From Paracoccaceae bacterium (GTDB lineage: Bacteria; Pseudomonadota; Alphaproteobacteria; Rhodobacterales; Rhodobacteraceae): a DNA stretch of 33,352 nt. The first letter of the stretch is position 1; each line of letters opens with the position of its first letter. This document shows positions 346-14,403 of this stretch, piece by piece. Under the pieces are notes generated by a model, which had not been told where the DNA came from, made no database searches, and saw nothing but the letters and a program-made list of their open reading frames with translations. The stretch lies in assembly GCA_017510335.1 (NCBI GenBank), contig JAFWNM010000021.1:1-33352 (forward strand), in the 5' to 3' direction. Made by a program: the position numbers and the translations under genes.

Positions 346-678
346 CTAGCCTGCCGAAAGGTCGATTTCAAGATCAAGGAAGGGGGCGTATTGCTGCGCC
401 CCGAAAATGTCGCCATCCCCCGCGCTGCCCGAAGGCCGCAGGCGCAAGATGGTGAATTTTATCGCCAGTCCGGGGTCGTATTCGACAAAGTCCGTCAGGC
501 GTGCAGGGTCAATATTGAGCACCTGACACACGGTTTCGCGGGTCAGGGAACCGGACCGGCGCACAAGGTCATATGCCTCGCGTTCGCGGAAGATGATATC
601 AAAGGTAATCTTGTCCGTTCCGGCGTTCTTGCTGCGGATGGTCTTGGCCAGCGTAGCCAATGTGGTGGGCGTGTTCAT
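346..678 (-). CDS. DUF4387 family protein, partner of AtuA-family protein
   Basis: A 110-residue soluble protein beginning MNTPTTLATLAKTIRSKNAG, with an internal stretch (TFDIIFREREAYDLVRRSG...LTRETV) that I recognise as the DUF4387 family. Its ATG overlaps the stop of the AtuA-family gene by 4 nt (ATGA), so translation is probably coupled. DUF4387 genes are commonly found directly after DUF1446/AtuA genes. In larger AtuA proteins a C-terminal domain of about this size is fused on, so this looks like the split form of one functional unit; that is inference. No catalytic residues are known for the family. The biochemical role is unknown, most likely an accessory subunit in catabolism of an acid or terpenoid-like compound. 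Confidence 0.82.
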   Translation of the reverse strand: MNTPTTLATLAKTIRSKNAGTDKITFDIIFREREAYDLVRRSGSLTRETVCQVLNIDPARLTDFVEYDPGLAIKFTILRLRPSGSAGDGDIFGAQQYAPFLDLEIDLSAG

Positions 679-2048
679 GCCGCTGCTCCTGTTGTGACGA
701 TTTCACTATGGGTCGGGAAAAGTTCCAGCGGGTCACGCACAGCCATAGTATGGTTCAATGTCCATCGATAGGCAGGGCTGGCGCGCATGACTTCGTCCAG
801 AACGAAGGATACCCCCCCCGCAGTGCCCTTCACATCCGGCAGGCGGGCATAGAACAGTTGCCGCGTGCCTGTCATGGCCACTTCTTCGGCCATGTCCAGC
901 GTAGGCGCGACACCCTGAACCACAACGCACAGTTCATGGCCGGGTTTGTCGCGCATGGGGTCCATGTCACCCATCACGCCATTGCGCCCGAAGACATTAT
1001 AGTGAAGTTCCCAGCCATCATCCCCGAAACGGTCGCGGGTTTGCTGGCGTGCCCATTCGATGACTGCATCGACATTGGCAATTGTATAAGGGTCGCGAAT
1101 GCCGGCCATCCCGACGAAGCGTTCGCCGACCTTGCCCGACCCTTCCAGCTTGACGCGGATTTCAGTGGCAGGGACGAATTTCATGCCTGTCACGCGGGTG
1201 GTTTTATCGGCAATCTGGTCGTAGTGACAGTCCGTCATATCCAGCATTCCGCCAGCCACAAATTCGTGGAAGGGGTTGGAACGTTCATACATGGCGTGCC
1301 CGGCCACAGATGCGATGGTGCAGCGTTGTTCGGGGGACATGGCCGTGACATCCACCCAGTCGCGCGTAATTTCGCCCAGAACAGTTTCCTTCGCGCCATA
1401 GGGTTCGGCACAAAAGCTGGCGCATTCCAGCACCTTGCCAAGATAGTAGGCCTGCGCTTCGGGAAACCCCCGGTGCAGCGCGGGGGCTGCGAAAATGGCG
1501 CTGTCGGACGATCTGCCGCCAATGATGACATCGCAGCCGTCTTCAAGAAGCTTCAAAAACGGGTGCACGCCAGCCATGGCAACGATGCGGTCTGTCGCGT
1601 CAAGTTCGTCTTCGGTAAGGTCGGTGCGCGCATCAAGCCCCTGCACGGCCGAACCCGCCCGGATGCTGGCGCGCACGCGTTCGGGGTCCACCTCGGAATA
1701 GAACCACCCCAGCCGGAAGGGTGCAAGCCCATGTTTGGCCGCCAGATCGCGGATGATCTGCACATACATGTCAACGCGGCTATTGGTGCCGGTATCGCCT
1801 GCGGACCCGATGATCATGGGCACATTCTTGTCGCGTGCGGCCAGAAGCATCAGTTCCAGATCATGTTCCTGCCAAGCCCGGGGGCTGGCGCAGGTGTCAT
1901 TTCCCAAGGGGCCAGGCCCGATGTCATCGCTGCCCGAATCTGCCGCGATGATGTCAGGGGCGGCTGCAACGCCCAACTGGAAACTGCCGTTCTTGAGGGG
2001 GGCGAACCCCAGATGCCCGTTGGGGCTGATGACCTTCATAGATGACAT
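675..2048 (-). CDS. AtuA-family (DUF1446) protein
   Basis: A 457-residue cytoplasmic protein of the DUF1446 / 'acyclic terpene utilization AtuA' family. Diagnostic segments are the GSAGDTGTN motif near residue 88, CDVIIGGRSSDSAIFAA in the middle and VQGVAPTLDMAEE near the C-terminus. Pseudomonas AtuA acts in citronellol/geraniol degradation, but most family members have no defined reaction, so terpene use should not be assumed. I start at MSSMKV (2048) because a GAGAGG Shine-Dalgarno sequence lies about 7 nt upstream; MKV at 2039 has no such spacing. An in-frame extension to about 2459 would run through the sigma-54 promoter and the upstream gene and is rejected. It is the first gene of a probable operon with DUF4387 and a CoA-transferase, driven by the promoter at 2084-2099. 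Confidence 0.85.
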   Translation of the reverse strand: MSSMKVISPNGHLGFAPLKNGSFQLGVAAAPDIIAADSGSDDIGPGPLGNDTCASPRAWQEHDLELMLLAARDKNVPMIIGSAGDTGTNSRVDMYVQIIRDLAAKHGLAPFRLGWFYSEVDPERVRASIRAGSAVQGLDARTDLTEDELDATDRIVAMAGVHPFLKLLEDGCDVIIGGRSSDSAIFAAPALHRGFPEAQAYYLGKVLECASFCAEPYGAKETVLGEITRDWVDVTAMSPEQRCTIASVAGHAMYERSNPFHEFVAGGMLDMTDCHYDQIADKTTRVTGMKFVPATEIRVKLEGSGKVGERFVGMAGIRDPYTIANVDAVIEWARQQTRDRFGDDGWELHYNVFGRNGVMGDMDPMRDKPGHELCVVVQGVAPTLDMAEEVAMTGTRQLFYARLPDVKGTAGGVSFVLDEVMRASPAYRWTLNHTMAVRDPLELFPTHSEIVTTGAAA

Positions 2049-2083
2049 GTCTGCCTCTCTTATATCTGTTTCATCTATATAGA

Positions 2084-2099
2084 TGCAGCTTTCGTGCCA
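2084..2099 (-). promoter_or_regulatory. Sigma-54 (-24/-12) promoter of the AtuA operon
   Basis: On the minus strand the sequence reads TGGCACGAAAGCTGCA. It has the invariant GG and GC separated by exactly 10 nt and an exact TGGCACG -24 block; the -12 block is CTGC instead of the common TTGC. The predicted start of transcription is near 2073, giving a leader of about 25 nt with a good Shine-Dalgarno sequence before the ATG at 2048. A sigma-54 activator gene ends 220 bp upstream, and a nearly identical element precedes the ABC operon at 10221-10236. A 12-bp perfect palindrome, ATCTATATAGAT (2073-2084), spans the predicted -11 to +1 region. Confidence 0.8.
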
Positions 2100-2155
2100 T
2101 AATTTGATTTCAGGTAATGCATTGTAATAAATTAATTTTATAAAATTATTTGGCA
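2100..2155. other. AT-rich block between promoter and palindrome, candidate IHF/bend region
   Basis: About 55 bp of strongly AT-rich sequence (runs such as AATTAATTTTATAAAATTATT) sits in otherwise GC-rich DNA, exactly between the -24/-12 element and the 44-bp palindrome. Sigma-54 promoters usually have an IHF-bound or intrinsically bent segment here that loops the activator onto the polymerase. A loose IHF-like word (AATCAA on the minus strand) is present but does not match the full consensus, so the assignment rests on position and composition. Confidence 0.4.
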
Positions 2156-2167
2156 AAGCGCGTGACT

Positions 2168-2211
2168 GGCGGGCGCGCAATTCCCGCACATGCGGGATTT
2201 GCGCGCCCGCC
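2168..2211. repeat. 44-bp near-perfect palindrome, candidate activator-binding site (UAS)
   Basis: Two 21-nt arms (2168-2188 and 2191-2211) are reverse complements with one mismatch, around a 2-nt centre; the core is CCCGCACATGCGGG. The centre lies about 117 bp upstream of the predicted start of the AtuA operon, the usual distance for an enhancer of a sigma-54 activator. No T-run follows the stem on either strand, so a classical intrinsic terminator for the upstream activator gene is less likely, although the transcript could fold there. A double role is possible. Confidence 0.6.
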
Positions 2212-2319
2212 GGGCCAACCGGGTGGGGCGGGCACTGCCGCACCAGCGCCGCGCCTTGGTTTAGGGTAATGGGGTGCAATCGACGCGGAAACCTGGAAAC
2301 CCGATTTTCGCCAAAGGCG

Positions 2320-3327
2320 CTATAGGCCCAGTTTCTGCATCTGGTGGCGCAGGGCATGCCGGCTGAGGCGCAGCAGGCTTGCGGCGTCTTGCTGGTTGCC
2401 GCCGGTTTGTTGCAGGGCGCGCACCAGAAGGCCGCGCTGAAATTCCGCCGTGGCGTCATGAAAACCGCCGCTGGTGGTCAGCGCCGTTTCGCCTGCTGGC
2501 GGTATCACGCGTGCGCCTGAACGGACTGTGCGCAAAATGCGGTCGGGCAGGTGGCGCGGCAGGATGACGTTTTCATCTTCAAGGATGAAAATCCGCTCCA
2601 GCAGGTTTTCAAGTTCGCGCACATTGCCCGGCCAGGGGTATTTGCGCAAGATATCGGCGGTTTCAGGGTCCAGCCCGCGAATTTCGCGCCCGAAGGCCAT
2701 GTTGAAGCGTTCAATGAAATGTTGTGCAAGAACAAGCACATCATCGCCCCTCTCGCGCAGGGCTGGAATGTTCAGCGACACAACCTGAAGCCGGTAATAC
2801 AGATCTTCGCGGAAATTTCCGGCCATCACCTCGGACAGCAAGACCTTGTTGGTGGCCGCGATGAAGCGCAGATCGACATGCGTGGATTTCACCGCCCCCA
2901 CCCGCCGGAACTGGTGGGTGTCCAGAAGGCTAAGCAGTTTTGCCTGCAAATGCGGGTCCATCTCGCGGATTTCATCCAGAAAGACACTGCCGTGATTTGC
3001 CGCTTCCACTAACCCGATCTTGCGTTCGCTGGCCCCTGTGAAGGCGCCTTTTTCATGGCCGAAAAATTCGGATTCCATCAACCCTGACGGGATGGCCGCA
3101 CAATTGATGTCCAAAAACGGCTTGTCGGCGCGGCGTGATCCCTGATGGACCATGCGCGCAAGCAGGCCCTTGCCGGTGCCCGTTTCGCCATAGATCAATA
3201 CAGTGCGCGCCGCCGAACGGGCCACGCGCCGGGCAAGCTGGCGCAGGGTTTCTATTTTGGGGTCGTTTCCAACAAGTTCGCTGCCGTAATCGGCCATCCG
3301 TTCCCCGCCATGCAGTTGCGCCGTCAT
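2320..3327 (-). CDS. Sigma-54-dependent activator (bEBP) without sensor domain
   Basis: About 335 residues consisting of an AAA+ sigma-54-interaction domain and a C-terminal Fis-type helix-turn-helix. Visible motifs are Walker A GETGTGKG (about 47-54), the sigma-54-contacting loop GAFTGA (about 94-99), Walker B SVFLDEI (about 114-120) and the C-terminal HTH GGNQQDAASLLRLSRHALRHQM. There is no N-terminal receiver, GAF, PAS or V4R domain, so it resembles PspF or HrpR/S in layout. The start at 3327 overlaps the upstream stop (ATGA), like the other junctions of this operon; MADYGSELVG at 3297 has a slightly better ribosome site and is the alternative. It is the last gene of the ABC operon and lies just before the AtuA promoter, so it probably activates both operons. 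Confidence 0.9.
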   Translation of the reverse strand: MTAQLHGGERMADYGSELVGNDPKIETLRQLARRVARSAARTVLIYGETGTGKGLLARMVHQGSRRADKPFLDINCAAIPSGLMESEFFGHEKGAFTGASERKIGLVEAANHGSVFLDEIREMDPHLQAKLLSLLDTHQFRRVGAVKSTHVDLRFIAATNKVLLSEVMAGNFREDLYYRLQVVSLNIPALRERGDDVLVLAQHFIERFNMAFGREIRGLDPETADILRKYPWPGNVRELENLLERIFILEDENVILPRHLPDRILRTVRSGARVIPPAGETALTTSGGFHDATAEFQRGLLVRALQQTGGNQQDAASLLRLSRHALRHQMQKLGL

Positions 3328-4424
3328 TCCGGTAGGGCAAACCAATGCCAGTTGCCTGCACATGGGTTTGCATTATGGAAATATACGCGACGCGACGCGA
3401 TTGCAAAGATGATAGATGACAAGGTGCTGGTGTCATCGGCCGTGTCGGGGTGCTGACAGACGGGCGCGCCTTGTGGGTCATGGGCGTGAAGGGCCAGCAG
3501 GTTTGCCGCTTGCGCCAGCGTCGGCGCGGCAGCAGACAGGTGGTGTGTCAGCCCCCCAAGGCGGTGTGCGGAATTGTTGTCGATGGTGGCCCCCCCGTGC
3601 AGCAGCGTATCTTGCGCAAGCTGGGGTGACAGGAAATGATTGGTGCGCCAGTTGCGTGCCCCTGTGGTGACGGCGAGTGTGGCCGCGCCCAGTTCCACCG
3701 CTGCTGTGGCCCCGCTGGCATCGGCCAGGATAAGCGACCCCCCGCCCGCGTGGGGCCTTGCGCGCAGCCAGTCCAGCGCGTCGGGCACGGTCGCGCAGGC
3801 TGCCAGAAGCCGCGTCATTGCCATATAACGCAACCAGCCAATCCCGTGGTGGCGTGCCCCGATCTGGGTGTCGGCAATGGCAAGCCCTGCTGCGTTCATT
3901 CCGCTGGAATACGCCCCCGGGCTGCCCAGACTGCCAAGGCACAGCATCCCGCCTGTCGTGATATCCGGCCCGTCATGCCAGAACAGGCGCTGCACGCCCA
4001 GATGTGCGCCGCCGAAATCGCGGTTCTTGGCCAGAAACGGCCCGTCTGGCCCGTCACCCGCCGCGAAGGCGCTGCATCCATCCCCCGATAGCATTGCGCC
4101 ATTGGTCAGGTCGCGCAATGTGCCAAGATGCAGGTGCACGAACAGCGTTTCTTCCGGTAGCCCGAACCCTTGGGCGATACCGGCAAGTTCTGCCATGCCC
4201 GCGGGGTCGTGGGCCATATGAAAGCGGTGCTGCGCTGCCACATAGTCCAGCATTGCGTCCGTGACGCGCCCTTCGTTGCGCAAGGATTGCACGCGCGCGA
4301 CTGTGGCCATCGCAACCTGGTCGCGCAGGTCGCTGTCTGCACCTGCCGCCTGCATAAGGCCGCGGGCATGGGCCGTGCCCGACAGGGTTTGCACTGTCAT
4401 CGAAGCAGCATTGGCCAGGGTCAT
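3324..4424 (-). CDS. C45-family acyltransferase/amidohydrolase (penicillin acyltransferase-like)
   Basis: A 366-residue Ntn-hydrolase of the acyl-CoA:6-aminopenicillanate acyltransferase (peptidase C45) type. The key segment is SGDGCSAFAAG with Cys117 as the expected nucleophile, freed by autocleavage after Gly116 as in the fungal enzyme. It is followed by the family's AKNRDFGGAH and by GMNAAGLAI. There is no signal peptide, so it should act in the cytoplasm. Family members form or hydrolyse amide bonds of N-acyl amino acids, peptides or lactams; the substrate here is unknown. Its ATG overlaps the stop of the ABC ATPase gene (ATGA), which suggests it processes what the importer brings in. The start at 4424 is fixed by that overlap; an upstream extension to 4526 would overlap the ATPase gene by about 100 bp. 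Confidence 0.8.
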   Translation of the reverse strand: MTLANAASMTVQTLSGTAHARGLMQAAGADSDLRDQVAMATVARVQSLRNEGRVTDAMLDYVAAQHRFHMAHDPAGMAELAGIAQGFGLPEETLFVHLHLGTLRDLTNGAMLSGDGCSAFAAGDGPDGPFLAKNRDFGGAHLGVQRLFWHDGPDITTGGMLCLGSLGSPGAYSSGMNAAGLAIADTQIGARHHGIGWLRYMAMTRLLAACATVPDALDWLRARPHAGGGSLILADASGATAAVELGAATLAVTTGARNWRTNHFLSPQLAQDTLLHGGATIDNNSAHRLGGLTHHLSAAAPTLAQAANLLALHAHDPQGAPVCQHPDTADDTSTLSSIIFAIASRRVYFHNANPCAGNWHWFALPE

Positions 4425-5440
4425 TGCGCAGCCCCTTCCAGAAGCGACAGGTTTTCGGACAGGCGGTGACAGGCTGCGCTGTGGCCGGGGGCCACCGTTT
4501 CGGTCACTGGTTTGCGCTGGCGGCATATGTCGGTGGCCAGCGGGCAGCGGGTGTGAAACTTGCAGCCCGATGGCGGGTCAAGGGGGGACGGCAGATCGCC
4601 GGTCAGGCGCACGCGCTGGCCCTTGCGCGTGCCATCCACTTCGGGAACTGCGGACATCAGGCTTTGGGTATAGGGATGGCGCGGCGCGGCAAGCACCGAC
4701 TCGACAGGGCCCATTTCCACAATCTCGCCCAGATACATGACTGCGACCCGGTCACTAAGATAGCCAATGACCGAAATATCATGCGAGATGAACAGATAGG
4801 TCAGGTGAAATTCGCGCTTCAATTCCAGCAAGAGCTGGATGATCTGGGCCTGGATAGACACATCAAGGGCGGAAACAGGTTCGTCACACACCACGAATTC
4901 AGGGTTCGAGATCAGCGCGCGCGCAATCCCGATGCGTTGGCGCTGCCCGCCAGAAAACTGGTGCGGGTAGCGGTCGATCTGGCCTGCCTTCAGCCCCACT
5001 TTTTCCAGCATGGCAGCCACCTTTTCGCGCATATCCTCGCGGCCCTTGGACAAGCCGTGCAATTGCAGCGGCAGGCCCACGATATCGCCCACTGTCCGGC
5101 GCGGGTTCAGCGACGCATAGGGGTCCTGAAAGATGATCTGCATGCGCCGCCGCATGGCCTTCAGGTCGGGTGGGGACAGGGATGTGACATCTGTTCCGCC
5201 AAATTCCACGCGTCCCGCACTTGGTTCGTGCAACCGCAAAATGGCCCGCCCAAGGGTCGATTTGCCGCAGCCGGATTCACCGATCAGCCCCAGGATTTCG
5301 CCGCGTGCCACATCCAGCGACACGTCCGATACCGCGCGCACCTGAACAGGCTTGCGTCCAAGAAGGCGCGCGATGGTGCCGGGGCTGCCAGTATAGGTTT
5401 TGGTCAGGTTCGTGACCTTCAGCAAGGGATCAGTGGTCAT
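4421..5440 (-). CDS. Peptide-type ABC importer ATPase (DppF/OppF-like)
   Basis: A 339-residue ATPase subunit of a dipeptide/oligopeptide-type ABC importer. Walker A GESGCGKST (54-62), signature FSGGQRQRIGIARAL, Walker B FVVCDEPVSALD and the switch histidine in FISHDISVIGYL are all intact. The C-terminal oligopeptide-family extension HPYTQSLMSAVP...FHTRCPLATDIC carries the cysteines typical of this subfamily. It would pair with the ATPase encoded just upstream to power import through the two permeases. The ATG overlaps the previous stop (ATGA). Substrates of this subfamily include peptides, glutathione, nickel and opines, so sequence alone does not name the ligand. Confidence 0.93.
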   Translation of the reverse strand: MTTDPLLKVTNLTKTYTGSPGTIARLLGRKPVQVRAVSDVSLDVARGEILGLIGESGCGKSTLGRAILRLHEPSAGRVEFGGTDVTSLSPPDLKAMRRRMQIIFQDPYASLNPRRTVGDIVGLPLQLHGLSKGREDMREKVAAMLEKVGLKAGQIDRYPHQFSGGQRQRIGIARALISNPEFVVCDEPVSALDVSIQAQIIQLLLELKREFHLTYLFISHDISVIGYLSDRVAVMYLGEIVEMGPVESVLAAPRHPYTQSLMSAVPEVDGTRKGQRVRLTGDLPSPLDPPSGCKFHTRCPLATDICRQRKPVTETVAPGHSAACHRLSENLSLLEGAAQ

Positions 5441-6450
5441 GCCTTGGCCCTTTCGGTCTGGAAAAGTTCAGTGCGGATGCAGCGCGCGCGGCGGCCCGGT
5501 CCGGCGGGGTGCATGTCGATAAGATGGCGGCAATCCTTATCCGCGTGCGGGCAGCGGTCCAGAAAACGGCATTGCGGCGGCAGGTCGATCAGGTCGGGCA
5601 CCTGTCCTTGAATCGGGCGGATGGGCTGGCCCCGCAATGCAGCACGCGGAATCGATGCCAGCAACCCGCGCGTATAGGGGTGGCCGGGGGCGCGAATAAC
5701 ACTGTCTGTTGGCCCTTCTTCCACCACCTGACCTGCATACATGACCATAACACGGTCGCAATGTTCGGCCACAACGCCCAGATCATGGGTGATCAGCACC
5801 ACACTCATACCCAGTTCGGTGCGCAGGTTCGAGATCAGTTCAAGCACTTGCGCCTGAATGGTGACGTCCAGTGCAGTTGTCGGTTCATCCGCGATCAGCA
5901 GGCGCGGCTTGGACGCCAGCGCGATGGCAATCATGATCCGCTGGCGCATGCCGCCGGAAAATTCATGCGGATACTGGCCCAGACGATCGCCGGCCGATGG
6001 AATGCCCACCAGATCCAGCATGTGCACCGAGCGTTCGCGGATGGCCTGCCTGCGTGCCGCCCCGCGGCGCGGCAGGTCATCTGCATGTGCATCCAGCATT
6101 TCGGCAAGCTGCAATCCGATGGTCAGGGCTGGGTTCAGCGCGGTCAGCGCATCTTGCATCGTCATGGCAATGTCACGCCCGCGCAAGGCTTGCATCTGGC
6201 GTGGCGGCAGTTTGCGAAGATCGGTCCCTTCAAAGATGATTTCGCCGGCCTCAATTCGCCCGGGCGGGCGCACCAGGCCCATGACCGATGCGAAGGTTAC
6301 GGATTTGCCCGAACCGGATTCGCCCACAATGCCAAGGCATTCGCCACGCTGGACCGTGACATCCACGCCGTCCACCGCACAAACCTGTCCGGCGCGTGTG
6401 TCAAAGACGGTGCGCAGCCCGCGCACTTCCAGAAGGATCGGATCGCTCAT
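5437..6450 (-). CDS. Peptide-type ABC importer ATPase (DppD/OppD-like)
   Basis: A 337-residue ATPase, the DppD/OppD-type partner. Walker A GESGSGKS (43-50), signature FSGGMRQRIMIAIAL, Walker B LLIADEPTTALD and the H-loop VLITHDLGVVAEH are intact. The family's C-terminal segment HPYTRGLLASIP...CRFLDRCPHADKDC is present. Start and stop overlap the neighbouring genes by 4 nt, consistent with stoichiometric synthesis of a heterodimeric ATPase pair on the cytoplasmic face. Confidence 0.93.
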   Translation of the reverse strand: MSDPILLEVRGLRTVFDTRAGQVCAVDGVDVTVQRGECLGIVGESGSGKSVTFASVMGLVRPPGRIEAGEIIFEGTDLRKLPPRQMQALRGRDIAMTMQDALTALNPALTIGLQLAEMLDAHADDLPRRGAARRQAIRERSVHMLDLVGIPSAGDRLGQYPHEFSGGMRQRIMIAIALASKPRLLIADEPTTALDVTIQAQVLELISNLRTELGMSVVLITHDLGVVAEHCDRVMVMYAGQVVEEGPTDSVIRAPGHPYTRGLLASIPRAALRGQPIRPIQGQVPDLIDLPPQCRFLDRCPHADKDCRHLIDMHPAGPGRRARCIRTELFQTERAKA

Positions 6451-7340
6451 TCTGTAAACCTCGGGTCAAATGCGTCGCGCAGCCCTTGGCTGGCCACGTT
6501 GATGGCAAGAACCAGCAGCAAAATGGCCAGCCCCGGAAAGGTTGAAACCCACCAGCTTTCAAGGATGAAGGCGCGCCCGTCCGCCACCATTGCGCCCCAG
6601 CTTGCGGTTGGCGGCTGCACCCCCAGACCAAGAAATGACAGGGACGCTTCCAGAATGATGACATGGGCCATGCGGATGGTGGCAACCACAATCACCGGCG
6701 ACAGGATGTTGGGCAAAATCTCGCGCAGCATGATATGGCGGCCAGATGCGCCAAGGGCGCGCGCGGCCTCGACATATTCCAGTTCGCGCGTGACCAGCGT
6801 TTCCCCGCGCACCACGCGGCAGGGGATGACCCATTCCTTGTAGGCCAGCGCAAGGATAATATTGCCCAAGCCCGGTCCCATCATTGCCATCAACCCGATG
6901 GCAAAGATCAGGTAGGGAAAGCCCAGCAAAATATCGACCAGCCGCGAAATCACCACATCGACCCAGCCGCGCAGATACCCTGCCGCCAGCCCCGCCAGAA
7001 TACCTATGCTGGTGGCCACCAGAATGACAGCTGCCCCGATGAAGATGGAAATGCGTGCGCCATAGATGATGCGTGACAGAATGCACCGGCCCAGGGAATC
7101 CGCACCAAGCGGATAGGCCCAGTCCCCGCCTTCCATCCAGACCGGGGGTTGCAGCCGAAAGAAAAGATTGGTCGCATAAGGGTCGTTGGGCGCAATCCAT
7201 GGCGCGAAAACTGCCATCAGGATGAACAGAACCACCACAATCGCGGACCCGAAGGCAAGGCGGTTTTCCATAAAGGCGGCCATGTTGCGCCGGAACAGGG
7301 ATTCCGCGACAACGGGGGGGCTTTGCTCTATCACGCTCAC
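6447..7340 (-). CDS. ABC importer permease (DppC-like)
   Basis: A 297-residue inner-membrane permease of the DppC/OppC type. It has a cytoplasmic N-terminus, a first membrane helix (about 29-47), the DppC N-terminal segment APWIAPNDPYATNLF and then the transport domain with the EAA-type coupling loop EAARALGASGRHIMLREILPN. Several further hydrophobic helices follow. The start codon is GTG at 7340, overlapping the stop of the upstream permease gene (GTGA); this is why I prefer it. It forms the channel with the DppB-like subunit. Confidence 0.92.
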   Translation of the reverse strand: MSVIEQSPPVVAESLFRRNMAAFMENRLAFGSAIVVVLFILMAVFAPWIAPNDPYATNLFFRLQPPVWMEGGDWAYPLGADSLGRCILSRIIYGARISIFIGAAVILVATSIGILAGLAAGYLRGWVDVVISRLVDILLGFPYLIFAIGLMAMMGPGLGNIILALAYKEWVIPCRVVRGETLVTRELEYVEAARALGASGRHIMLREILPNILSPVIVVATIRMAHVIILEASLSFLGLGVQPPTASWGAMVADGRAFILESWWVSTFPGLAILLLVLAINVASQGLRDAFDPRFTE

Positions 7341-8350
7341 AGCTTCACCCTCGGGTTAAGAATGGTATACAGAATATCAGCGAAGAAGTTCAGCATCACA
7401 TAGATGACGGCATAAAGAAGCACCGCCGCCTGCACCAAGGGGTAGTTGCGCACGAAAATGCTCTCGACCACCAGCCGTCCCAGACCGGGCCAGCCGAAAA
7501 CAGTTTCGATGATCATATTCCCCCCCAGCAGACTGCCGGTTTCAATGGCCGCCACCGAAACGGTCGGAATAAGCGCGTTCTTCAGCGCGTGACGCCATAA
7601 AATACGCTGCCGGCTTAGGCCCTTGGCTTGCGCGAAGGTGATGTAGTCGGCGCGCAGCACTTCCAGCATTGCCGTGCGGGTTACGCGCATCAAAATGGCA
7701 GTCATGGGCAGGCCAAGCGTGATCGCGGGCAGGGCAATATGGGCCAGTGCATTGCGAAACGCGTCCAGACGCCCGTTCAGCAATGTGTCAATCAACAGGA
7801 AATGCGTATAGGGCGTGATGCCTTGACTGATGCCATAGTTGATGCGCCCTGCAACCGGCAGGATATTCAGATGCACTGCAAACAGCATCAACAGCAAAAT
7901 ACCGAACCAGAACCCCGGCAAGGACACGCCCAGAAGGCCGCCCACAGTGGCAATGCGGTCAAAAATGGAATTCTTGCGCACCGCCGCCAGAACACCCAGC
8001 GGAATAGCCGTCACCAGCGCGATAATCATCGCAACAAGGGTCAATTCGATTGTGGCTGGCAGGCGTTCGATAATAACATCAGCCACAGGGCGACGATGAT
8101 AGAAGCTTTGGCCGAAATCGAACTGGATGGCATTGCCAAGGAAGACGAAGAAGCGTTCCACCATGGGCCGGTCAAGGCCGATATCGCGCCGCATCTGGGC
8201 TTCCTGTTCGGGGGTGACGATCTGATCACCGATCATGATCTGGATCGGGTCACCCGGTGTCAGCGCCATCATCACAAAGACAATCACGCTTACCCCCAGA
8301 AGCACGGGCACAAGTTGCACCAGTCGTTCAAGAAGCTTGGTCAAGGTCAT
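7337..8350 (-). CDS. ABC importer permease (DppB-like)
   Basis: A 337-residue inner-membrane permease of the DppB/OppB type. The N-terminal helix LLERLVQLVPVLLGVSVIVFVMMALTPGDP is characteristic, and the coupling loop DYITFAQAKGLSRQRILWRHALKNALIP is near the C-terminal third. I start at MTLTKLL (8350), where GGGAG lies about 8 nt upstream; an 11-residue extension to 8383 has no such support. It is separated from the binding-protein gene by 249 bp that hold two stem-loops. It is the first of six genes joined by 4-nt overlaps. Confidence 0.92.
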   Translation of the reverse strand: MTLTKLLERLVQLVPVLLGVSVIVFVMMALTPGDPIQIMIGDQIVTPEQEAQMRRDIGLDRPMVERFFVFLGNAIQFDFGQSFYHRRPVADVIIERLPATIELTLVAMIIALVTAIPLGVLAAVRKNSIFDRIATVGGLLGVSLPGFWFGILLLMLFAVHLNILPVAGRINYGISQGITPYTHFLLIDTLLNGRLDAFRNALAHIALPAITLGLPMTAILMRVTRTAMLEVLRADYITFAQAKGLSRQRILWRHALKNALIPTVSVAAIETGSLLGGNMIIETVFGWPGLGRLVVESIFVRNYPLVQAAVLLYAVIYVMLNFFADILYTILNPRVKL

Positions 8351-8366
8351 GCCGTTCTCCCGGTTG

Positions 8367-8401
8367 CAAGGACATCTGGCCACAAGCAGCCGATGTCCTT
8401 G
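8367..8401 (-). repeat. Inverted repeat ahead of the permease gene
   Basis: A perfect 10-nt inverted repeat, CAAGGACATC (8367-8376) and GATGTCCTTG (8392-8401), with a 15-nt loop. On the transcript it lies just upstream of the ribosome site of the DppB-like permease gene. No T-run follows, so I read it as an mRNA structure or a protein-binding site that could limit permease expression relative to the binding protein; the function is inferred. Confidence 0.45.
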
Positions 8402-8552
8402 GGCAGTTGCACAAAGCTGGAAGGATGTGCGTCAGAGCATGTCGCAGAAAACTGGCTACCGGCTTTCTGGACGGATAACATGCGTTCCTGGAAAATAAGA
8501 TCGGGTCGCGTGGGTGCCAATGAACGCGATACGATCCGGGGTTGCGCAAAGT

Positions 8553-8592
8553 GCTGTTGCGCAAAACAGCGGTGGCTGTCCTGCGCAACAGC
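8553..8592 (-). repeat. Strong stem-loop just after the binding-protein gene
   Basis: Arms GCTGTTGCGCA (8553-8563) and TGCGCAACAGC (8582-8592) are perfect complements of 11 nt. Inside them a second stem ACAGC/GCTGT closes a 4-nt loop. The structure begins 7 nt after the stop of the binding-protein gene on the transcript and has no T-tract. Such hairpins between a binding-protein gene and permease genes commonly protect the upstream mRNA and cause excess binding protein, as known for malE and hisJ operons; here it is inference. Confidence 0.55.
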
Positions 8593-8599
8593 AAGGGTT

Positions 8600-10135
8600 T
8601 CAGTTCAGGCAAGCCCGATGCAGGTTGATGCGGCTGTCGGGGCTGGGGGACCAGTTGCTGATGCGTGTTGACACCCCATACAGGTCTTGGGGAACCCACA
8701 GATAGATATAGGGCACATCTGCGTTCACCAGTGCTTCGGCCTGCTGGTACAACTCGCCGCGTCTGTCGCGGTCCAGTTCCACCCCGGCTTCGTCCAGCAG
8801 CGCATCCAATTCAGGGTTGGCATAGCCCGCCGAATTGCCGCGGTCATCGGTGCGGTGGGTCGGCACGAAAATATCGAAGGGGTCAAGCGTGGAATTTCCC
8901 CACGAACTTAGATACATGTCGCCTTCTTTCGCGCCGCCCTGCGTGCGCCATTTTTGCGTCAGCAAGGTGCCTTCGCCAACCTGCACGCGCGTGGTGATGC
9001 CAGCATTCGTCAACAGCGAGGCAATCGCTTCGGCGGTGTCGCGCAGCGACCCTTCGGTGTCGAGCGTGATTGAAATACCGTCGGGATAGCCTGCTTGCGC
9101 CAGCAATTCGCGCGAACGGTCGGGATCATAGGCATAGCTGGGCAGGTCGTGGTTCTTGCCAAAGGCATCCGGGCTTAGGATACCGTCAATCGTGGTGGCG
9201 GTGCCGCCAAGAATGCGGTCAATGATCAGGTCACGGTCAATTGCATGCGCCACAGCCTGACGCACCAGCACATCGTCGAATATCTCGCCTTGATTGTTCA
9301 TGGCCAGAAAGAAGCTGCGCGTGCCGTTCACGGCCATGACTTGCGCATTGGGGCTGTTATTGACCTGATTCATGGAATGGGGCGGCAGTTCGTTGATGAT
9401 ATGCACATCCCCCGACAGCAGCGCGGCCACACGCGAAGCCGATTCCGGGATCACCTGAAAAATGACGCGCTCCACACAGGCAGGGCCAGCTTCGGGAATG
9501 CCTGTTGCGCCACCATAATAGTCGTCAAACCGTTCCAGAACAACGGAATCCCCGCGCCGCCAGTCGGCCAGTCGGAATGGGCCGGACCCCATGGGTTGGG
9601 TGGCCATGCCGTCAGACCCGACAGCGTCCACATGGGCACGCGAGACGATCTGTTGATGGGGCAGCATGGCAGGCAGCAGCGGCCATGGTTCACTTAGGGA
9701 AATGCGGATGGTGGTGTCATCCATGATCTCGACTGATTCCACGGGTCCCATCAGGCTTGCGCGCGGGCTGGACTGGCCATTGCCCATGCCGCCTTCCTGA
9801 ACGACGCGGTCCAGCGTGAATTTCACATCCTCGATTGTCAGGCTTGACCCGTCGTGAAAGGTAATCCCGGAACGGATGGTAAAGTCATAGACAGTGGGTG
9901 AAACCTGCGTGTAGCTTTCGGCAATTTCGGGATGGATCTGCATGTCCGAAGACCGCGTCAGAATGCCATCATAGATATTGCGAATGATGGTTTCGGTTTC
10001 CCGGTTTCGGTGGTTGGCAGGGTCCAGCGTATCGGCGTCGCGGGTAAAGCCAACGATCAACTCCTGTGCGTGAACCGCCGGGGCAGCGCAAAGCGCAATG
10101 GCCGAAGCGACAAGAGTTCGGTGGAAAATTCTCAT
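8600..10135 (-). CDS. Periplasmic solute-binding protein, family 5 (peptide type)
   Basis: A 511-residue extracytoplasmic binding protein. A Sec signal peptide (MRIFHRTLVASAIALCAAPAVHA, cleavage before QE) is followed by a mature start with the family 5 pattern ADTLDPANHRNRETETIIRNIYDGIL. Further family segments are DFTIRSGITFHDGSSLTIEDVKFTLDRV, the central GSGPFRLADWRRGDSVVLERFDDYY and AVAHAIDRDLIIDRIL. Family 5 proteins bind di- and oligopeptides, opines, glutathione, nickel-chelates or sugars, so the ligand is open. It is the first gene of the ABC operon. A sigma-54 promoter lies about 75 bp upstream of the ATG. Confidence 0.93.
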   Translation of the reverse strand: MRIFHRTLVASAIALCAAPAVHAQELIVGFTRDADTLDPANHRNRETETIIRNIYDGILTRSSDMQIHPEIAESYTQVSPTVYDFTIRSGITFHDGSSLTIEDVKFTLDRVVQEGGMGNGQSSPRASLMGPVESVEIMDDTTIRISLSEPWPLLPAMLPHQQIVSRAHVDAVGSDGMATQPMGSGPFRLADWRRGDSVVLERFDDYYGGATGIPEAGPACVERVIFQVIPESASRVAALLSGDVHIINELPPHSMNQVNNSPNAQVMAVNGTRSFFLAMNNQGEIFDDVLVRQAVAHAIDRDLIIDRILGGTATTIDGILSPDAFGKNHDLPSYAYDPDRSRELLAQAGYPDGISITLDTEGSLRDTAEAIASLLTNAGITTRVQVGEGTLLTQKWRTQGGAKEGDMYLSSWGNSTLDPFDIFVPTHRTDDRGNSAGYANPELDALLDEAGVELDRDRRGELYQQAEALVNADVPYIYLWVPQDLYGVSTRISNWSPSPDSRINLHRACLN

Positions 10136-10220
10136 GGTCCGAGTCTCCCTGTTTCATCCGACGACCGGAATGGCCGAAGGTTTGCATTGGCAGGCGAAGA
10201 ATATACCTGCACCAGTTTAA

Positions 10221-10236
10221 TGCAGTAATCGTGCCA
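10221..10236 (-). promoter_or_regulatory. Sigma-54 (-24/-12) promoter of the ABC importer operon
   Basis: On the minus strand the sequence reads TGGCACGATTACTGCA, with GG-N10-GC spacing, an exact TGGCACG block and the same CTGCA -12 block as the AtuA promoter at 2084-2099. The predicted start near 10210 leaves a leader of about 75 nt before the binding-protein ATG. The rpoN gene ends 137 bp upstream. The intervening DNA is AT-rich, as expected for a bendable spacer. Confidence 0.8.
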
Positions 10237-10251
10237 AAATTCCACATACAA

Positions 10252-10271
10252 AAAGGTTCAGAAAAACCTTT
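10252..10271 (-). terminator. Weak stem-loop between rpoN and the sigma-54 promoter
   Basis: AAAGGTT and AACCTTT (10252-10258 and 10265-10271) pair around a 6-nt loop. Read on the minus strand the stem ends in a short T-run, so it could be a weak intrinsic terminator of rpoN. The stem is AT-rich and short, and it also lies just upstream of the -24 element, so a protein site is equally possible. Confidence 0.3.
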
Positions 10272-10331
10272 ATTTATTATGTTGTTATATCCGTTTTGAA
10301 AAATTCTTGCTGCGGCAGGCACGGACAATTC

Positions 10332-10346
10332 GCGTGATTTTCACGC
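10332..10346. promoter_or_regulatory. Candidate activator site upstream of the ABC operon promoter
   Basis: GCGTGA-ttt-TCACGC is a short inverted repeat centred about 129 bp upstream of the predicted transcription start. That is close to the distance of the 44-bp palindrome from its own promoter (about 117 bp). The two elements do not obviously share sequence, so this is a positional guess. Confidence 0.25.
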
Positions 10347-10372
10347 ATTCTGGACAACTTGCACACAAGGGG

Positions 10373-11710
10373 TCAGCGGTCCGTTGCGCGCGTCAACTTG
10401 TAGCGGGTGCGGCGTTGGTGCGACGACCCCGCCCCGATAAGGTCGCGATATTTCGCAATGGTGCGTCTGGCCACCTGAATGCCCTCAGTGGCCAGAATGT
10501 CGGCCAGCGCGGCATCATTCAGGGGGGCAGCAGGGTTTTCTGCGCCAATAATTTCGCGCAACCTGTGGCGAACGGCGCTTGCGGCGATGGCGTCCCCGTC
10601 GGCGGTGGCCTTCAGCGCAGGTCCAAACAGGCTGCGCAGCGGCAATGTGCCTTGCGGGGTCTGGATCAGCATTGCAGTGGCCACGCGTCCGATGGTTGTT
10701 TCATGTAGCCCCGCCTGATCGGCGACCTGAACGCGGGTCAGGGGGCGCAACCCGGACACCCCGTTGCGCAGGAAATCCGATTGCAGGGTCACCACGGCAC
10801 CAACAACGCGCAGCACTGTCGCATTGCGCCGCGACACAGCGCGCAGAATCCAGCGCGCTTCGGCAAGGGCCGCATCATAGGCGTCATCGTTTGCGGTGCC
10901 TTCGGGCGGCGGGCGTAGTGTGATTTCGGGTGTCGTTGCGTCATTCAGTTCGACACGCCAGCCATCCGGTCCGGCGTCATGGATTATGGCATCTGGCGGC
11001 CTGATCGGGGTGTCGGCGGGTGCAAATACCAGTCCGGGCTTGGGGTCAAAACTGCGGATCTGTCCGATCAGACCCATGATCTGGCTTGCGTCGGTGTTGC
11101 AAAGCTCTGCCAGGGTATCGATTTTTCCGCGCGCTATCAGGTCCAGATGCTGCAAAACGGTGGCCATGGCGTCATTCAACAGCCCGCGTTCACTGGCCTG
11201 AAGGCGCAGGCATTCCGCAAGATCGCGGGCGAATATACCTGCAGGTTCGATCTGTTGCAGGCGCATCAGAATGCGTTGGGCGTGATCAGCTGCGCAACCC
11301 GCACGCATGGCCAGTGTCGCAAGTGGTTCGCCCAGCCAGCCCGTGGGTTCCAGTGCCTCCGCGAAGATGGACGCGATGCGCTGGTCTTCGGGCGTGCGAA
11401 ACGCAATTGCGATTTCGGTTGCGACATGGTCGCGCAGGCTGGCATCAGGCGCGGCAAGCCGCAATTCCGTCAGCGCGGTGCCCCCCGCGCCGGGCGCTAC
11501 CGGCCGTGATGGCGGGGGGGGCGTGCTGCCCGGCTGGGGCGGCAGATTGCGCAAGCCAAGGGCGGGATTGGCATCTGACAGCGTTTTCAGCCGCTGCGCC
11601 AGGGCCTGATTGTCAAGTTTCAGAAAATCGATTGCCTGCCGCAAGGCCCCTGTCATAGCAAGCCGCCGGGTGGGGCGCATGTCAAGCTGGTGGTGCGTCG
11701 CGTTTTGCAT
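10373..11710 (-). CDS. rpoN: RNA polymerase sigma-54 factor, probable accessory paralogue
   Basis: A 445-residue sigma-54 factor. Region I is visible as RLAMTGALRQAIDFLKLDNQAL (compare the usual MTPQLQQAIKLLQLSNLEL). A proline-rich linker near residues 55-75 corresponds to region II. The HTH region is LTRVQVADQAGLHETTIGRV and the RpoN box is ARRTIAKYRD (about 414-423), close to the consensus ARRTVAKYRE. I start at MQNATHHQLD (11710), which gives the normal distance to region I; upstream methionines would add a non-conserved tail. The usual neighbours of a housekeeping rpoN (lptB, hpf/raiA, ptsN) are absent. Instead it abuts an operon with a sigma-54 promoter, so I infer a dedicated copy like the multiple rpoN genes of Rhodobacter sphaeroides. 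The 218 bp upstream show no clear promoter. Confidence 0.92.
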   Translation of the reverse strand: MQNATHHQLDMRPTRRLAMTGALRQAIDFLKLDNQALAQRLKTLSDANPALGLRNLPPQPGSTPPPPSRPVAPGAGGTALTELRLAAPDASLRDHVATEIAIAFRTPEDQRIASIFAEALEPTGWLGEPLATLAMRAGCAADHAQRILMRLQQIEPAGIFARDLAECLRLQASERGLLNDAMATVLQHLDLIARGKIDTLAELCNTDASQIMGLIGQIRSFDPKPGLVFAPADTPIRPPDAIIHDAGPDGWRVELNDATTPEITLRPPPEGTANDDAYDAALAEARWILRAVSRRNATVLRVVGAVVTLQSDFLRNGVSGLRPLTRVQVADQAGLHETTIGRVATAMLIQTPQGTLPLRSLFGPALKATADGDAIAASAVRHRLREIIGAENPAAPLNDAALADILATEGIQVARRTIAKYRDLIGAGSSHQRRTRYKLTRATDR

Positions 11711-11928: not shown

Positions 11929-12579
11929 TTATTCTGACAGCATCGCGCGCAAAACATGCAGCGCGGCTGTCGTGCCATCGACAATCGGCAGGTCGATATA
12001 TGGCGCGAAGTTCTGTGCCAGACCAGCCAAAGGCCCGCCCCCCAGAACAATACTGTCAATCCCGCCCGCCTTGGCGCGTTGCTGGCACAGCTGCAGCAAG
12101 GGTTGCGCCAATTCGTGATGGATGTGTCCGGGGTCAGACCACATGCTGTTTTCCAGCACGGTGACATCTGCCAGATGGTCCAGCAAACCGTAATGGGCAA
12201 CAATTGCGCGCAACGACGCCTGCACACTGGGGCTGAAGGACACAATGGAAAAACGCGGTCCATGCGCCAGTGCCTGTGTCAGGGCGGACTGCGCGATCCC
12301 GACCACCGGCTTGCCGGTGCGCGCGCGGACCTGATCAAGGCCCGTATCCCCGAAAGACGCCAGCACGATGGCGTCCATACCATCATGATGCTGATCGACG
12401 GCCGCCAACACACCTTGCATAGCATGAACGCTGTCGGCCGGTGTGACAATCAGATCAGGCCCGAATGCCGCCGGAACTGTGCGAACCACATCCCCTGGTC
12501 GTGCGGCGGCGCGCGCGGCCAGATCAATGCGCCGGGTTACACCGATATTGGTGTTCGGATTTACAACAAGCACCCGCAT
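11929..12579 (-). CDS. Asp/Glu/hydantoin racemase-fold protein lacking catalytic cysteines
   Basis: A 216-residue cytoplasmic protein with the family's opening MRVLVVNPNTN, the central DAIVLASFGDTGLDQVRA and the C-terminal GIDSIVLGGGPLAGLAQ...LPIVDGTTAAL. In hydantoin and allantoin racemases two cysteines (near 76 and 181, in ACFxDPGL and LGCAG contexts) act as acid/base pair. Here those positions are Ser75 and Gly181, and the only cysteine (about 165) is elsewhere. It therefore either uses a different chemistry or is not a racemase. The gene follows the TRAP permease gene by 4 bp, so it should act on the imported compound or a product of it. No strong Shine-Dalgarno sequence is seen; translation is probably coupled. 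Confidence 0.82.
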   Translation of the reverse strand: MRVLVVNPNTNIGVTRRIDLAARAAARPGDVVRTVPAAFGPDLIVTPADSVHAMQGVLAAVDQHHDGMDAIVLASFGDTGLDQVRARTGKPVVGIAQSALTQALAHGPRFSIVSFSPSVQASLRAIVAHYGLLDHLADVTVLENSMWSDPGHIHHELAQPLLQLCQQRAKAGGIDSIVLGGGPLAGLAQNFAPYIDLPIVDGTTAALHVLRAMLSE

Positions 12580-12583
12580 CGCG

Positions 12584-13870
12584 TTACAACAACACCGATG
12601 GCAGCCAAAGCACAATGGCCGGGAATATATTGACCAGTGCCAGCGCAATCAGCATCGCGCCGATGAACCACAGCATTGACGGAATGATCTGCGCCAGCGA
12701 AATGCGCGCAATCGCGCAGGTGATCAGCACCACCGACGCCACAGGCGGCGTTTGCTGCCCGATTCCCAGATTGATGGTGATGATCAGCCCGAAATGCACC
12801 CGGTCAATTCCCAATTGGTCGGCCAGCGGCAGAAAGATCGGCACCAGCATAAGAATGGCGGGCGTGCCATGCACAATGGTGCCTGCCAACAGGAAAAACA
12901 CATTGATGGCCAGCAGCACAATCCAGTAATTTTCGGAAATGCCAAGGATGGCATTCGCAATATCCTGTGGAATGCGCTGGTTGGTCAGATACCACCCCAG
13001 CAAGGTTGATGTTGCCACAATGAACATCAACATCGCGCTGCGTTTTCCGGCAATGCGCAATGTGTCCAGAAACGCGGCAACTGTTACTGTCCGATACAGG
13101 AACGCGGCCATGATGATGGACCATAGCGCCGCCACGGCACCGGCTTCGGTTGCTGTGAAAATTCCGCCCAGAATGCCCACCAAAATCAGGATGGGCAGTG
13201 TCAAAGGCACTGCAGCATCCTTGCCGGTGGCGGCAACCCGCGCCCATGAAAACGCCCCTTCGGTCGGGTAGCCCCGTTTGACGGATATGAAATAGGCGGT
13301 CATGATCAGCAGGAAACATACCAGAAACCCCGGCACAATGCCCGCTGCAAAAAGCTGCGCGATCGAGGCATTGGCCACATACGCATACAGGATCAGGTTC
13401 AGGCTGGGGGGCACAATAATGGCCATTGTTGCAGATGTGGACGTAACTGCCGCTGCAAAGGCCGCCGGATAGCCGCGCTTTTTCATCTGCGGAATCATCA
13501 CCGACCCGATGGCGGCGGCGTCAGATGTCGCTGTGCCCGATATTTCCGAAAAGAACAGCGATGTCAGAATATTGACATGGGCCAGCCCGCCACGAATATG
13601 CCCGACAAGCGAAGATGCAAAGGCGATCAGCTTTTCTGCGATCTTGCCCTGGTTCATGATTTCGCCCGCGATCATGAACAACAGCGCCGCAACCAGCAGA
13701 TAGTTGTTGGCGCCGCCAAACGGGATCAGCCCGATGATTTGCGGCACCACTGCCGGGTCCAGCATGATCATGACCGATGCGGTCACGCCCAGCACGAAGG
13801 CAATCGGCATGCCCATCATCAGCAGGCCGACCAGCAGGATAAGGATTATATAGCCAGGGTCCAGAAACAT
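12584..13870 (-). CDS. TRAP transporter large permease (DctM type)
   Basis: A 428-residue, highly hydrophobic inner-membrane protein with about 12 predicted helices. It begins with the DctM hallmark GYIILILLVGLLMMGMPIAFVLG. The conserved FFSEISGTATSDAAAIGSVMIPQMKKRGYPAAFAAAVTSTSATMAIIVPPS is the Na+/substrate-binding segment of the family, and GIGQQTPPVA near the C-terminus matches the second conserved motif. It is the ion-coupled transport subunit, working with the small permease and the periplasmic binding protein. Its ATG shares one base with the stop of the small permease gene (TGATG). Confidence 0.93.
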   Translation of the reverse strand: MFLDPGYIILILLVGLLMMGMPIAFVLGVTASVMIMLDPAVVPQIIGLIPFGGANNYLLVAALLFMIAGEIMNQGKIAEKLIAFASSLVGHIRGGLAHVNILTSLFFSEISGTATSDAAAIGSVMIPQMKKRGYPAAFAAAVTSTSATMAIIVPPSLNLILYAYVANASIAQLFAAGIVPGFLVCFLLIMTAYFISVKRGYPTEGAFSWARVAATGKDAAVPLTLPILILVGILGGIFTATEAGAVAALWSIIMAAFLYRTVTVAAFLDTLRIAGKRSAMLMFIVATSTLLGWYLTNQRIPQDIANAILGISENYWIVLLAINVFFLLAGTIVHGTPAILMLVPIFLPLADQLGIDRVHFGLIITINLGIGQQTPPVASVVLITCAIARISLAQIIPSMLWFIGAMLIALALVNIFPAIVLWLPSVLL

Positions 13871-14391
13871 CAGCCGTCACTTTGCGTCATAAGGTCATGG
13901 GGGGTGATCCGGTTGGTCAGCAGGCCCGCCAGCCGGACAAGACAGATCAACACGATCAGTGCACCGCCCAGCGGCATGGCCGCGCGAAACAACATGACAG
14001 GCAGATCAACCGAAATCAGTTGGCGCGCACCGAAGCTTAGCGCGGCCTTGCCGCCATACCAGGCCAGCACGCCGCCCAGCCATGCCATCAGCATCAGGTT
14101 CAGGCCCATAACGACCCTTTGCATCATCTGCGGCAGGCTGCGCAGAACGCTGTCAAATCCCAGATGCTCATTCGTGCGTGTCAGATAGGCCGCGCCGATA
14201 AATGTAAGCGCGGCCAGCATTTGTGCGGGCAGTTCCTCGCCCCATGATACGGACGAATTCAGGATGAAGCGCGAATATACCGCATAGTTCAGCAAGACCA
14301 GAAGCGCCCCGGCCATGAAGATGACAAACGCGTCCAGCATCCACTGCACTGCCGCGTCCAGACGCAGAATAATCTTTTCAATCATCTCCAT
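13870..14391 (-). CDS. TRAP transporter small permease (DctQ type)
   Basis: A 173-residue inner-membrane protein with four predicted helices and the DctQ motif VSWGEELPAQMLAALTFIGAAYLTRTNEHLGFD. It connects the binding protein with the large permease. The gene lies between the binding-protein gene (12-bp gap) and the large permease gene (1-bp overlap). The start at 14391 is preferred; MIEK at 14385 would be only two codons shorter. Confidence 0.9.
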   Translation of the reverse strand: MEMIEKIILRLDAAVQWMLDAFVIFMAGALLVLLNYAVYSRFILNSSVSWGEELPAQMLAALTFIGAAYLTRTNEHLGFDSVLRSLPQMMQRVVMGLNLMLMAWLGGVLAWYGGKAALSFGARQLISVDLPVMLFRAAMPLGGALIVLICLVRLAGLLTNRITPHDLMTQSDG

Positions 14392-14403
14392 GGCCGCGAT
14401 CCG

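Follow-up and report, generated by a model that had tools for sequence, protein, structure and literature searches.

Our analysis of a 33,352-nucleotide contig from a Paracoccaceae bacterium (JAFWNM010000021.1, assembly GCA_017510335.1) revealed a ten-gene unit that is very probably a portable catabolic cassette with its own sigma-54 factor, its own sigma-54 activator, or enhancer-binding protein (EBP), and two client promoters. The unit lies on the minus strand of this stretch, called the window here, at positions 346-11710, in the order rpoN-SBP-dppB-dppC-oppD-oppF-C45-EBP-AtuA-DUF4387 (SBP, solute-binding protein). The window is the whole of one contig (C15) in a genome of 3.61 Mb, 43 contigs and 99.99% completeness. 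Directly visible in the sequences are the unit itself, a -24/-12 promoter element before each of its two operons, dyads upstream of these elements, conservation across genera and one case of joint loss; rpoN is the sole copy found in its genome, and the EBP carries the sole intact GAFTGA loop. Within that genome, the sigma factor and activator of this island look like the only working sigma-54 system. All evidence is computational, and the genomes are drafts throughout, several of them metagenome-assembled.

We propose the following model, in which binding, exclusivity, feedback and chemistry are inferred from sequence. The rpoN gene would be transcribed from a putative upstream promoter, and the RpoN-holoenzyme would serve mainly or only the cassette's two -24/-12 elements. 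The EBP is predicted to bind palindromes resembling TGCGTG-N5-CACGCA, which mostly lie 65-115 bp before the -24 box, and to open both promoters. Promoter 1 would drive the importer, the C45 protein and the EBP itself, yielding positive feedback, and promoter 2 would drive AtuA-DUF4387. The cargo would take up a small amide- or peptide-like compound, which the C45 N-terminal nucleophile (Ntn) hydrolase may cut, and a citramalate-lyase-like two-subunit enzyme may then split the released hydroxy-acid.

The features of the unit, from its head downward, and the gene start that follows it are listed below; genes were named from Pfam and NCBIfam profile matches unless stated otherwise.

10373..11710, minus: rpoN, putatively private sigma-54, 445 aa; AID, core-binding and DNA-binding domains (Pfam, NCBIfam)
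10331..10347, minus: putative upstream activator site (UAS) TGCGTGAAAATCACGCG, starting 111 bp upstream of the promoter 1 -24 box; dyad recurring in 45 upstream regions
10221..10236, minus: -24/-12 promoter 1 TGGCACGATTACTGCA, upstream of the SBP operon, 85 bp before SBP; perfect GG-N10-GC
8600..10135, minus: SBP, family 5 solute-binding protein (PF00496)
7337..8350, minus: dppB-type permease (PF00528/PF19300)
6447..7340, minus: dppC-type permease (PF00528/PF12911)
5437..6450, minus: oppD-type ATPase (PF00005/PF08352)
4421..5440, minus: oppF-type ATPase (PF00005/PF08352)
3324..4424, minus: C45 autoproteolytic acyltransferase/hydrolase, proenzyme (NF040521 over cut-off; Cys117 invariant)
2320..3297 (open reading frame to 3363), minus: sensor-less sigma-54 activator, EBP (PF00158/PF25601/PF02954; AAA+, Fis-type HTH, intact GAFTGA)
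2172..2207, minus: two adjacent putative activator-site palindromes upstream of promoter 2, scoring 18.5 of 21 each
2084..2099, minus: -24/-12 promoter 2 TGGCACGAAAGCTGCA, upstream of AtuA, 35 bp before its start; perfect GG-N10-GC
675..2048, minus: AtuA family, homologue of citramalate lyase subunit A (PF07287; PDB 9erq_A, E=5.9e-74)
346..678, minus: DUF4387, homologue of citramalate lyase subunit B (PF14330; PDB 9erq_B, E=1.3e-21)
1-165, minus: start of a CoA-transferase gene, first 55 codons, cut by the contig end; named from sequence only

For the EBP, a start at 3297 is likelier than one at 3363 because orthologues begin near MADY. The first-pass annotation of this DNA had placed the named genes on one strand, and all of them are present there, in order.

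Conservation of the unit and its relatives without rpoN

We sampled the family with 394 genomes of 393 genera. Fifteen other genera have an EBP orthologue with 69% identity or more, the next best match standing at 53%. Fourteen of these carry rpoN on the same contig, 6.7-6.9 kb away from the EBP, with the ten genes in the same order; in G198, rpoN-SBP-dppB end one contig and the rest of the unit is on another. Within the genus, four genomes hold the unit (G004, G031, G028, whose rpoN runs into a contig end, and G017, truncated within dppC), and it is also found in Rhodobacteraceae bacterium HLUCCA09 (L104), where parts of a second peptide-type importer, 35-49% identical, stand upstream of the island rpoN (16-2878). 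SBP identity with the 20 other rpoN-headed islands runs from 91 to 65%. AtuA orthologues of at least 71% identity were detected in 18 of the 394 family genomes, 16 of them inside an rpoN-headed unit and the other two in G109 and G251. The earlier proposal of a self-contained sigma-54 regulon, with its own sigma factor, activator and two promoters, is borne out by this co-occurrence, the gene set staying together in most relatives. No flanking gene recurs in more than 4 of the 37 stretches compared (open reading frames of at least 100 aa, E ≤1e-15).

The CoA-transferase, which had been counted as a core member of the second operon, does not belong to the unit in this sense. Its start is found downstream in only 3 of 19 related loci (15 with at least 4 kb of downstream sequence, 4 with less than 700 bp), directly after DUF4387 in G028, as in the window, and about 1.2 kb away in G143 and G383. 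We regard it as an occasional neighbour.

What becomes of the cassette where the island rpoN is missing? In this family the cassette carries rpoN at its head; elsewhere it occurs without rpoN. Outside the family, the order from SBP to DUF4387 without a head rpoN was found in three cases, a Ciceribacter thiooxidans plasmid, G658 and G616, the last two being the only other matches at E up to 1e-85 among 385 class genomes. Both promoters are present in Ciceribacter, one strong and one weaker in G658, and only the SBP promoter in G616. Cupriavidus plasmids hold EBP, AtuA and DUF4387, with no adjoining importer in the one read. Within the family, the unit of G109 is rearranged, and an rpoN stands at another place in that genome; the AtuA of G109, on contig C4, has a different importer beside it and no EBP or rpoN match in 20 kb. 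The unit of G251 is also rearranged. This genome has no rpoN match, its activator loop reads GSFAGA, and no -24/-12 element was found before SBP, AtuA, EBP or C45 (only 173 bp being available before C45). Such a joint loss of sigma factor, loop and promoters is what sigma-54 dependence predicts, in one case.

Promoters, dyads and the recognition helix

The pattern TGGCACGNNNNCTGCW occurs three times in the genome, two of the occurrences being the island promoters, and its reversed-pattern control occurs twice. Scored with our own weighting after the known consensus, a -24/-12 element lies upstream of SBP in 21 of 21 rpoN-headed islands and upstream of AtuA in 20 of 20, with scores of at least 23.5 of 27 (shuffle p ≤0.023) and at least 25 of 27 (p ≤0.007), respectively. 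Since the elements are kept in all of these orthologous islands, chance is no reasonable account of them, and the two promoters first proposed from the window, both perfect GG-N10-GC, hold up throughout. The dyad TGCGTG-N5-CACGCA recurs upstream of the elements. In 17 of the 21 SBP regions its best copy begins 108-114 bp ahead of the -24 box, and in the AtuA regions most copies are found 65-66, 77-78 or 86-89 bp before it, in steps of about one helical turn. The 45 upstream regions comprise 41 of rpoN-headed islands and 4 others; 34 of them, and 3% of 4000 random 190-bp windows, have a best score of at least 19 of 21, a figure that is descriptive and no independent test, the dyad model having been built from the same sequences that it scored.

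The two promoters of a genome also vary together. At the two positions before TGC, the same base stands in both promoters of 17 and 13 genomes, respectively, out of 20 (6.5 and 5.7 on average after shuffling) and, with close relatives removed, of 11 and 8 out of 14 (p 0.001 and 0.002, for six positions and no correction); at the three bases preceding those two, agreement between promoters does not exceed chance. The variation extends to the sigma factor: in 20 of 20 genomes the base before TGC in promoter 1 is C with an H-E-T-T helix and not C with an H-x-S-T helix. Copies with a non-E helix have G at this base in 4 of 5 cases, and E copies in 1 of 15. We take the helix E of the island RpoN to correspond to E378. 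A link between helix and promoter is plausible because two residues of the recognition helix, E378 and R383, can be crosslinked to promoter DNA in the closed complex of sigma-54 (PMC5505868). Co-variation of this kind, though of few independent origins, is as expected of a sigma factor that would be private to two clients.

A putatively private sigma-54 and its activator

All three RpoN domain profiles (PF00309, PF04963, PF04552) match the window RpoN, which passes the TIGR02395 cut-off and has the RpoN box ARRTIAKYRD. The DNA-binding domain (Sigma54_DBD, PF04552) has exactly one match in this genome, the island gene, and the additional rpoN paralogue that the first-pass annotation had supposed is not supported for this genome. 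An rpoN match above the cut-off is present in 12 of the 38 genomes of the same genus. Of the 394 family genomes, 130 match the window RpoN and 264 do not, in a search with this one sequence, which divergent copies may escape. A single branch of a tree of 81 RpoNs (support 86/84) divides the 20 island copies from 20 class-wide and 41 other family copies, the class-wide copies being presumed to be housekeeping. A second, quick tree of 71 rows agrees on the island clade (support 85). A nif- or fla-type assignment of copies outside this clade would be a guess from the activators nearby. By its position outside the class-wide clade, the island RpoN is not the housekeeping gene. The suggested copy count and tree yielded a sole copy outside the presumed housekeeping clade, and neither this outcome nor the distribution of the gene set refutes the proposal.

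The housekeeping alphaproteobacterial rpoN usually lies in the context lptB-rpoN-hpf-ptsN. This context is absent from the window, as had been noted at the outset, and no ABC ATPase lies directly upstream of rpoN; its neighbours are SBP and, on the same strand directly upstream (window 11929-15384), Asp/Glu-racemase-like and TRAP transporter genes named from sequence. RpoN changes faster between genera than any other protein of the unit, with a median identity of 40.7%, compared with 52.0% for C45, 70.4% for the EBP and 68.8-85.3% for the remaining proteins (medians taken over loci, two genomes being counted twice); within the genus, RpoN and C45 tie at 67%. All 20 island RpoNs compared have long open frames.

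The EBP, of about 325 aa, starts directly at the AAA+ domain and has no N-terminal sensor domain. PF00158 gives 13 matches in the genome. They resolve into eight NtrC-type proteins including the window EBP, one protein giving two matches, and four weak matches, two ClpA-/MoxR-like by sequence and two (L015 and L016) at 25 and 20 bits. Only the window EBP among the eight has an intact GAFTGA loop; the loop reads GAFPGA in two (L006 and L007) and is altered or lost in five (L008-L012). The GAFTGA loop contacts sigma-54. This contact is also stated in PMC11999139. Among 20 island EBPs, 19 have GAFTGA and one GSFTGA, the EBP of G017 lying beyond its contig end. The GAFPGA activators of this genome with a putatively private sigma-54 (L006 at C6:133638, L007 at C4:48506) have possibly turned to sigma-70. 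A DNA-level search for GAFTGA across 32 genomes (137 matches, 157 in the reversed control) was too noisy and was not used for counts.

Could rpoN simply be the genome's one ordinary sigma-54, relocated beside a catabolic operon and still serving other genes through other activators? We consider this unlikely. Its status as sole copy fits such a relocation, as do the seven other NtrC-type ATPases and 13 further -24/-12 strings with the right spacer, and -24/-12 words exceed the reversed-pattern control genome-wide (32 versus 5; 76 versus 6 for all spacers together). However, none of those seven ATPases has an intact GAFTGA, the island RpoN falls outside the class-wide clade, and a same-clade rpoN stands at the same place on one contig in 14 other genera. 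The strings themselves barely rise above wrong-spacer controls, numbering 15 with the right spacer and 10, 11, 10, 9, 9 and 12 for spacers 2, 3, 4, 6, 7 and 8, and we read the excess over the reversed control as word bias because the wrong spacers share it. We read 30 of the 32 right-spacer sites: a dyad scoring 18 or more at 65-115 bp and a gene start no more than 100 bp away coincide at the two island sites alone, and a further site (L205) has a dyad of 19 at -103 and no gene start nearby. A broad sigma-54 regulon is rejected by the spacer control and the dyad check together. It is very improbable that rpoN is a co-inherited hitch-hiker without functional link, the operons being read by sigma-70: its fast change (41% median identity versus 52-85% for its neighbours) is what a decaying gene might show, yet all three domains match in the window copy, 20 island RpoNs keep long open frames, every examined island headed by rpoN has both promoters and the single family member lacking rpoN has neither, and the promoters co-vary with each other and with the recognition helix. 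A module that takes up and removes a signal, regulatory and not catabolic, is a quite unlikely reading of the cargo. The C45 hydrolase could degrade a signal, and the lack of any flanking gene in more than four stretches means that the unit has no constant link to a sensor or longer pathway, but a five-gene importer and a citramalate-lyase-like two-subunit enzyme point to carbon catabolism.

Besides the circularity of the dyad model and the genome-wide excess of -24/-12 words, which leaves room for a few further targets that RpoN may have beyond the island, several observations weigh against a private cassette system. Seven other NtrC-type ATPases are encoded in the genome, two of them with GAFPGA loops that may act with sigma-54, and the EBP has no sensor that would account for the inducing signal. 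Support for the island clade is moderate (86/84). The description as sole sigma-54 is true of 13 of the 20 island genomes (counted without HLUCCA09), a further rpoN match being present in seven (G028, G267, G418, G367, G273, G454, G322). At promoter 2 the link between helix T and base C is weaker (C in 6 of 7 versus 3 of 12), and the helix change needs three tree steps, giving one to three independent pairs, too few for a sign test to become significant. In G616, which is without the island rpoN, no promoter 2 was found. Finally, G251 has no strong dyads but retains a weaker one before AtuA (17 of 21; 18% of random windows score as high), and its activator may still bind DNA.

Cargo, known systems and other packaged rpoN genes

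The C45 protein scores 135.3 bits against NF040521 (cut-off 85), and Cys117, which we take to be the putative nucleophile of this family, is invariant in 25 of 25 aligned C45 sequences, the window included. Between genera, C45 is the second fastest-changing protein of the unit (median 52%, versus 69-85% for importer, activator and lyase), which may reflect substrate diversification. The two chains of a solved citramalate lyase, named as subunits A and B in PDB 9erq/9evf, are matched by AtuA and DUF4387, respectively, along almost the whole of each protein, and this makes doubtful the CoA-linked breakdown originally suggested for the second operon. The island pair resembles the solved enzyme, CmlAB, in both subunits and has adjacent genes; the homology is distant, and the pair may cleave citramalate or another hydroxy-acid. 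A literature search on DUF4387 and on AtuA with DUF1446 returned no papers, and none on the enzyme of 9erq/9evf was among the matches listed. We propose that importer, C45 hydrolase and lyase import an amide- or peptide-like compound, hydrolyse it and then cleave the hydroxy-acid; citryl or citramalyl amides would be our guess at the substrate.

Dedicated pairs of RpoN and activator are known from Cereibacter (Rhodobacter) sphaeroides, where RpoN1-NifA, RpoN2-FleQ and RpoN3-AprX are described (PMC11999139). According to the same paper, each studied RpoN uses one activator on its own promoters, much as we propose here, and related bacteria hold several divergent rpoN genes. C. sphaeroides has four paralogues in one genome and an AprX with a REC domain (PMC11999139), in contrast to the sole rpoN and sensor-less activator of the island, whose sigma factor, activator, importer and enzymes form one conserved ten-gene unit. 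The four RpoNs of G120, a four-rpoN genome that we infer to be C. sphaeroides-like, lie outside the island clade, one of them on a long, unsure branch. Sensor-less sigma-54 activators of the PspF/HrpS type are known. The island EBP resembles them in having AAA+ and Fis-type HTH domains and no N-terminal sensor domain, and differs in that no PspA-like partner was recognised among the island's ten genes. What appears to be new is a sigma factor packed with its activator and catabolic genes in one unit. A 2025 survey of sigma-54 regulons puts multiple rpoN genes in about 5% of the organisms it covers, and the part of it available to us makes no mention of operon-packaged sigma-54 (PMC12316311). 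The literature matches listed described no catabolic unit equipped with a sigma-54 of its own, most subscription journals lying outside the search.

Another parallel is Paracoccus aminophilus, whose sole rpoN reportedly is on plasmid pAMI4 and is assigned to nitrogen metabolism and general regulation (PMC3925955). There, too, the sole rpoN of a Rhodobacterales genome adjoins an operon, for a monooxygenase; the RpoN lineage and the cargo differ. In four genomes of the window's own genus (G023, G026, G032 and G003; L052, L053, L054 and L056), a very divergent RpoN (9679-10920 in L054) stands beside a methane/phenol/alkene-type monooxygenase operon and an amidohydrolase, and weak to fair -24/-12 matches (23.5-25 of 27) lie about 180-220 bp before the alpha-subunit frame. 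This makes a second instance in which rpoN comes together with a catabolic operon. Plasmid rpoN genes, that of P. aminophilus among them, were found as follows.

L245, 10941-12203; L246, 9001-10287; L248, 7956-9146; L247, 9001-10299: plasmid rpoN genes

They adjoin a monooxygenase in P. aminophilus and Gemmobacter fulvus, acetoin dehydrogenase in P. denitrificans, and acetone carboxylase/CoA-transferase genes in Neorhizobium petrolearium. An annotated sigma-54 activator lies near three of these four genes. The monooxygenase and acetoin operons have -24/-12 matches upstream. In Neorhizobium such matches precede the rpoN operon and not the carboxylase genes.

We lean, somewhat, towards the wider view that sigma-54 in Rhodobacterales is a portable, operon-specific part: cassettes would carry their own fast-drifting rpoN, whose -12-reading helix co-evolves only with the cassette promoters, and most sampled genomes have no rpoN match. 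The island cassette would be the best-conserved such case, the others appearing beside alkene/propane-type monooxygenase, acetoin dehydrogenase and acetone carboxylase genes. Sigma-54 is usually seen as a global factor for many activators; here it looks like one gene of a single cassette. A sigma factor with two clients would be free to drift, which makes the cassette a natural test of why one rpoN cannot stand in for another, and the 20 lineages would provide matched sigma-promoter pairs for reading the -12 recognition code. Caution is advisable in naming such rpoN genes nitrogen regulators, and the cassette gives a handle on an uncharacterised importer-C45-lyase pathway. Elsewhere in the window, two GAPDH-like genes (16733-17731 and 18410-19411) flank a rhodanese-like gene, all named from sequence.

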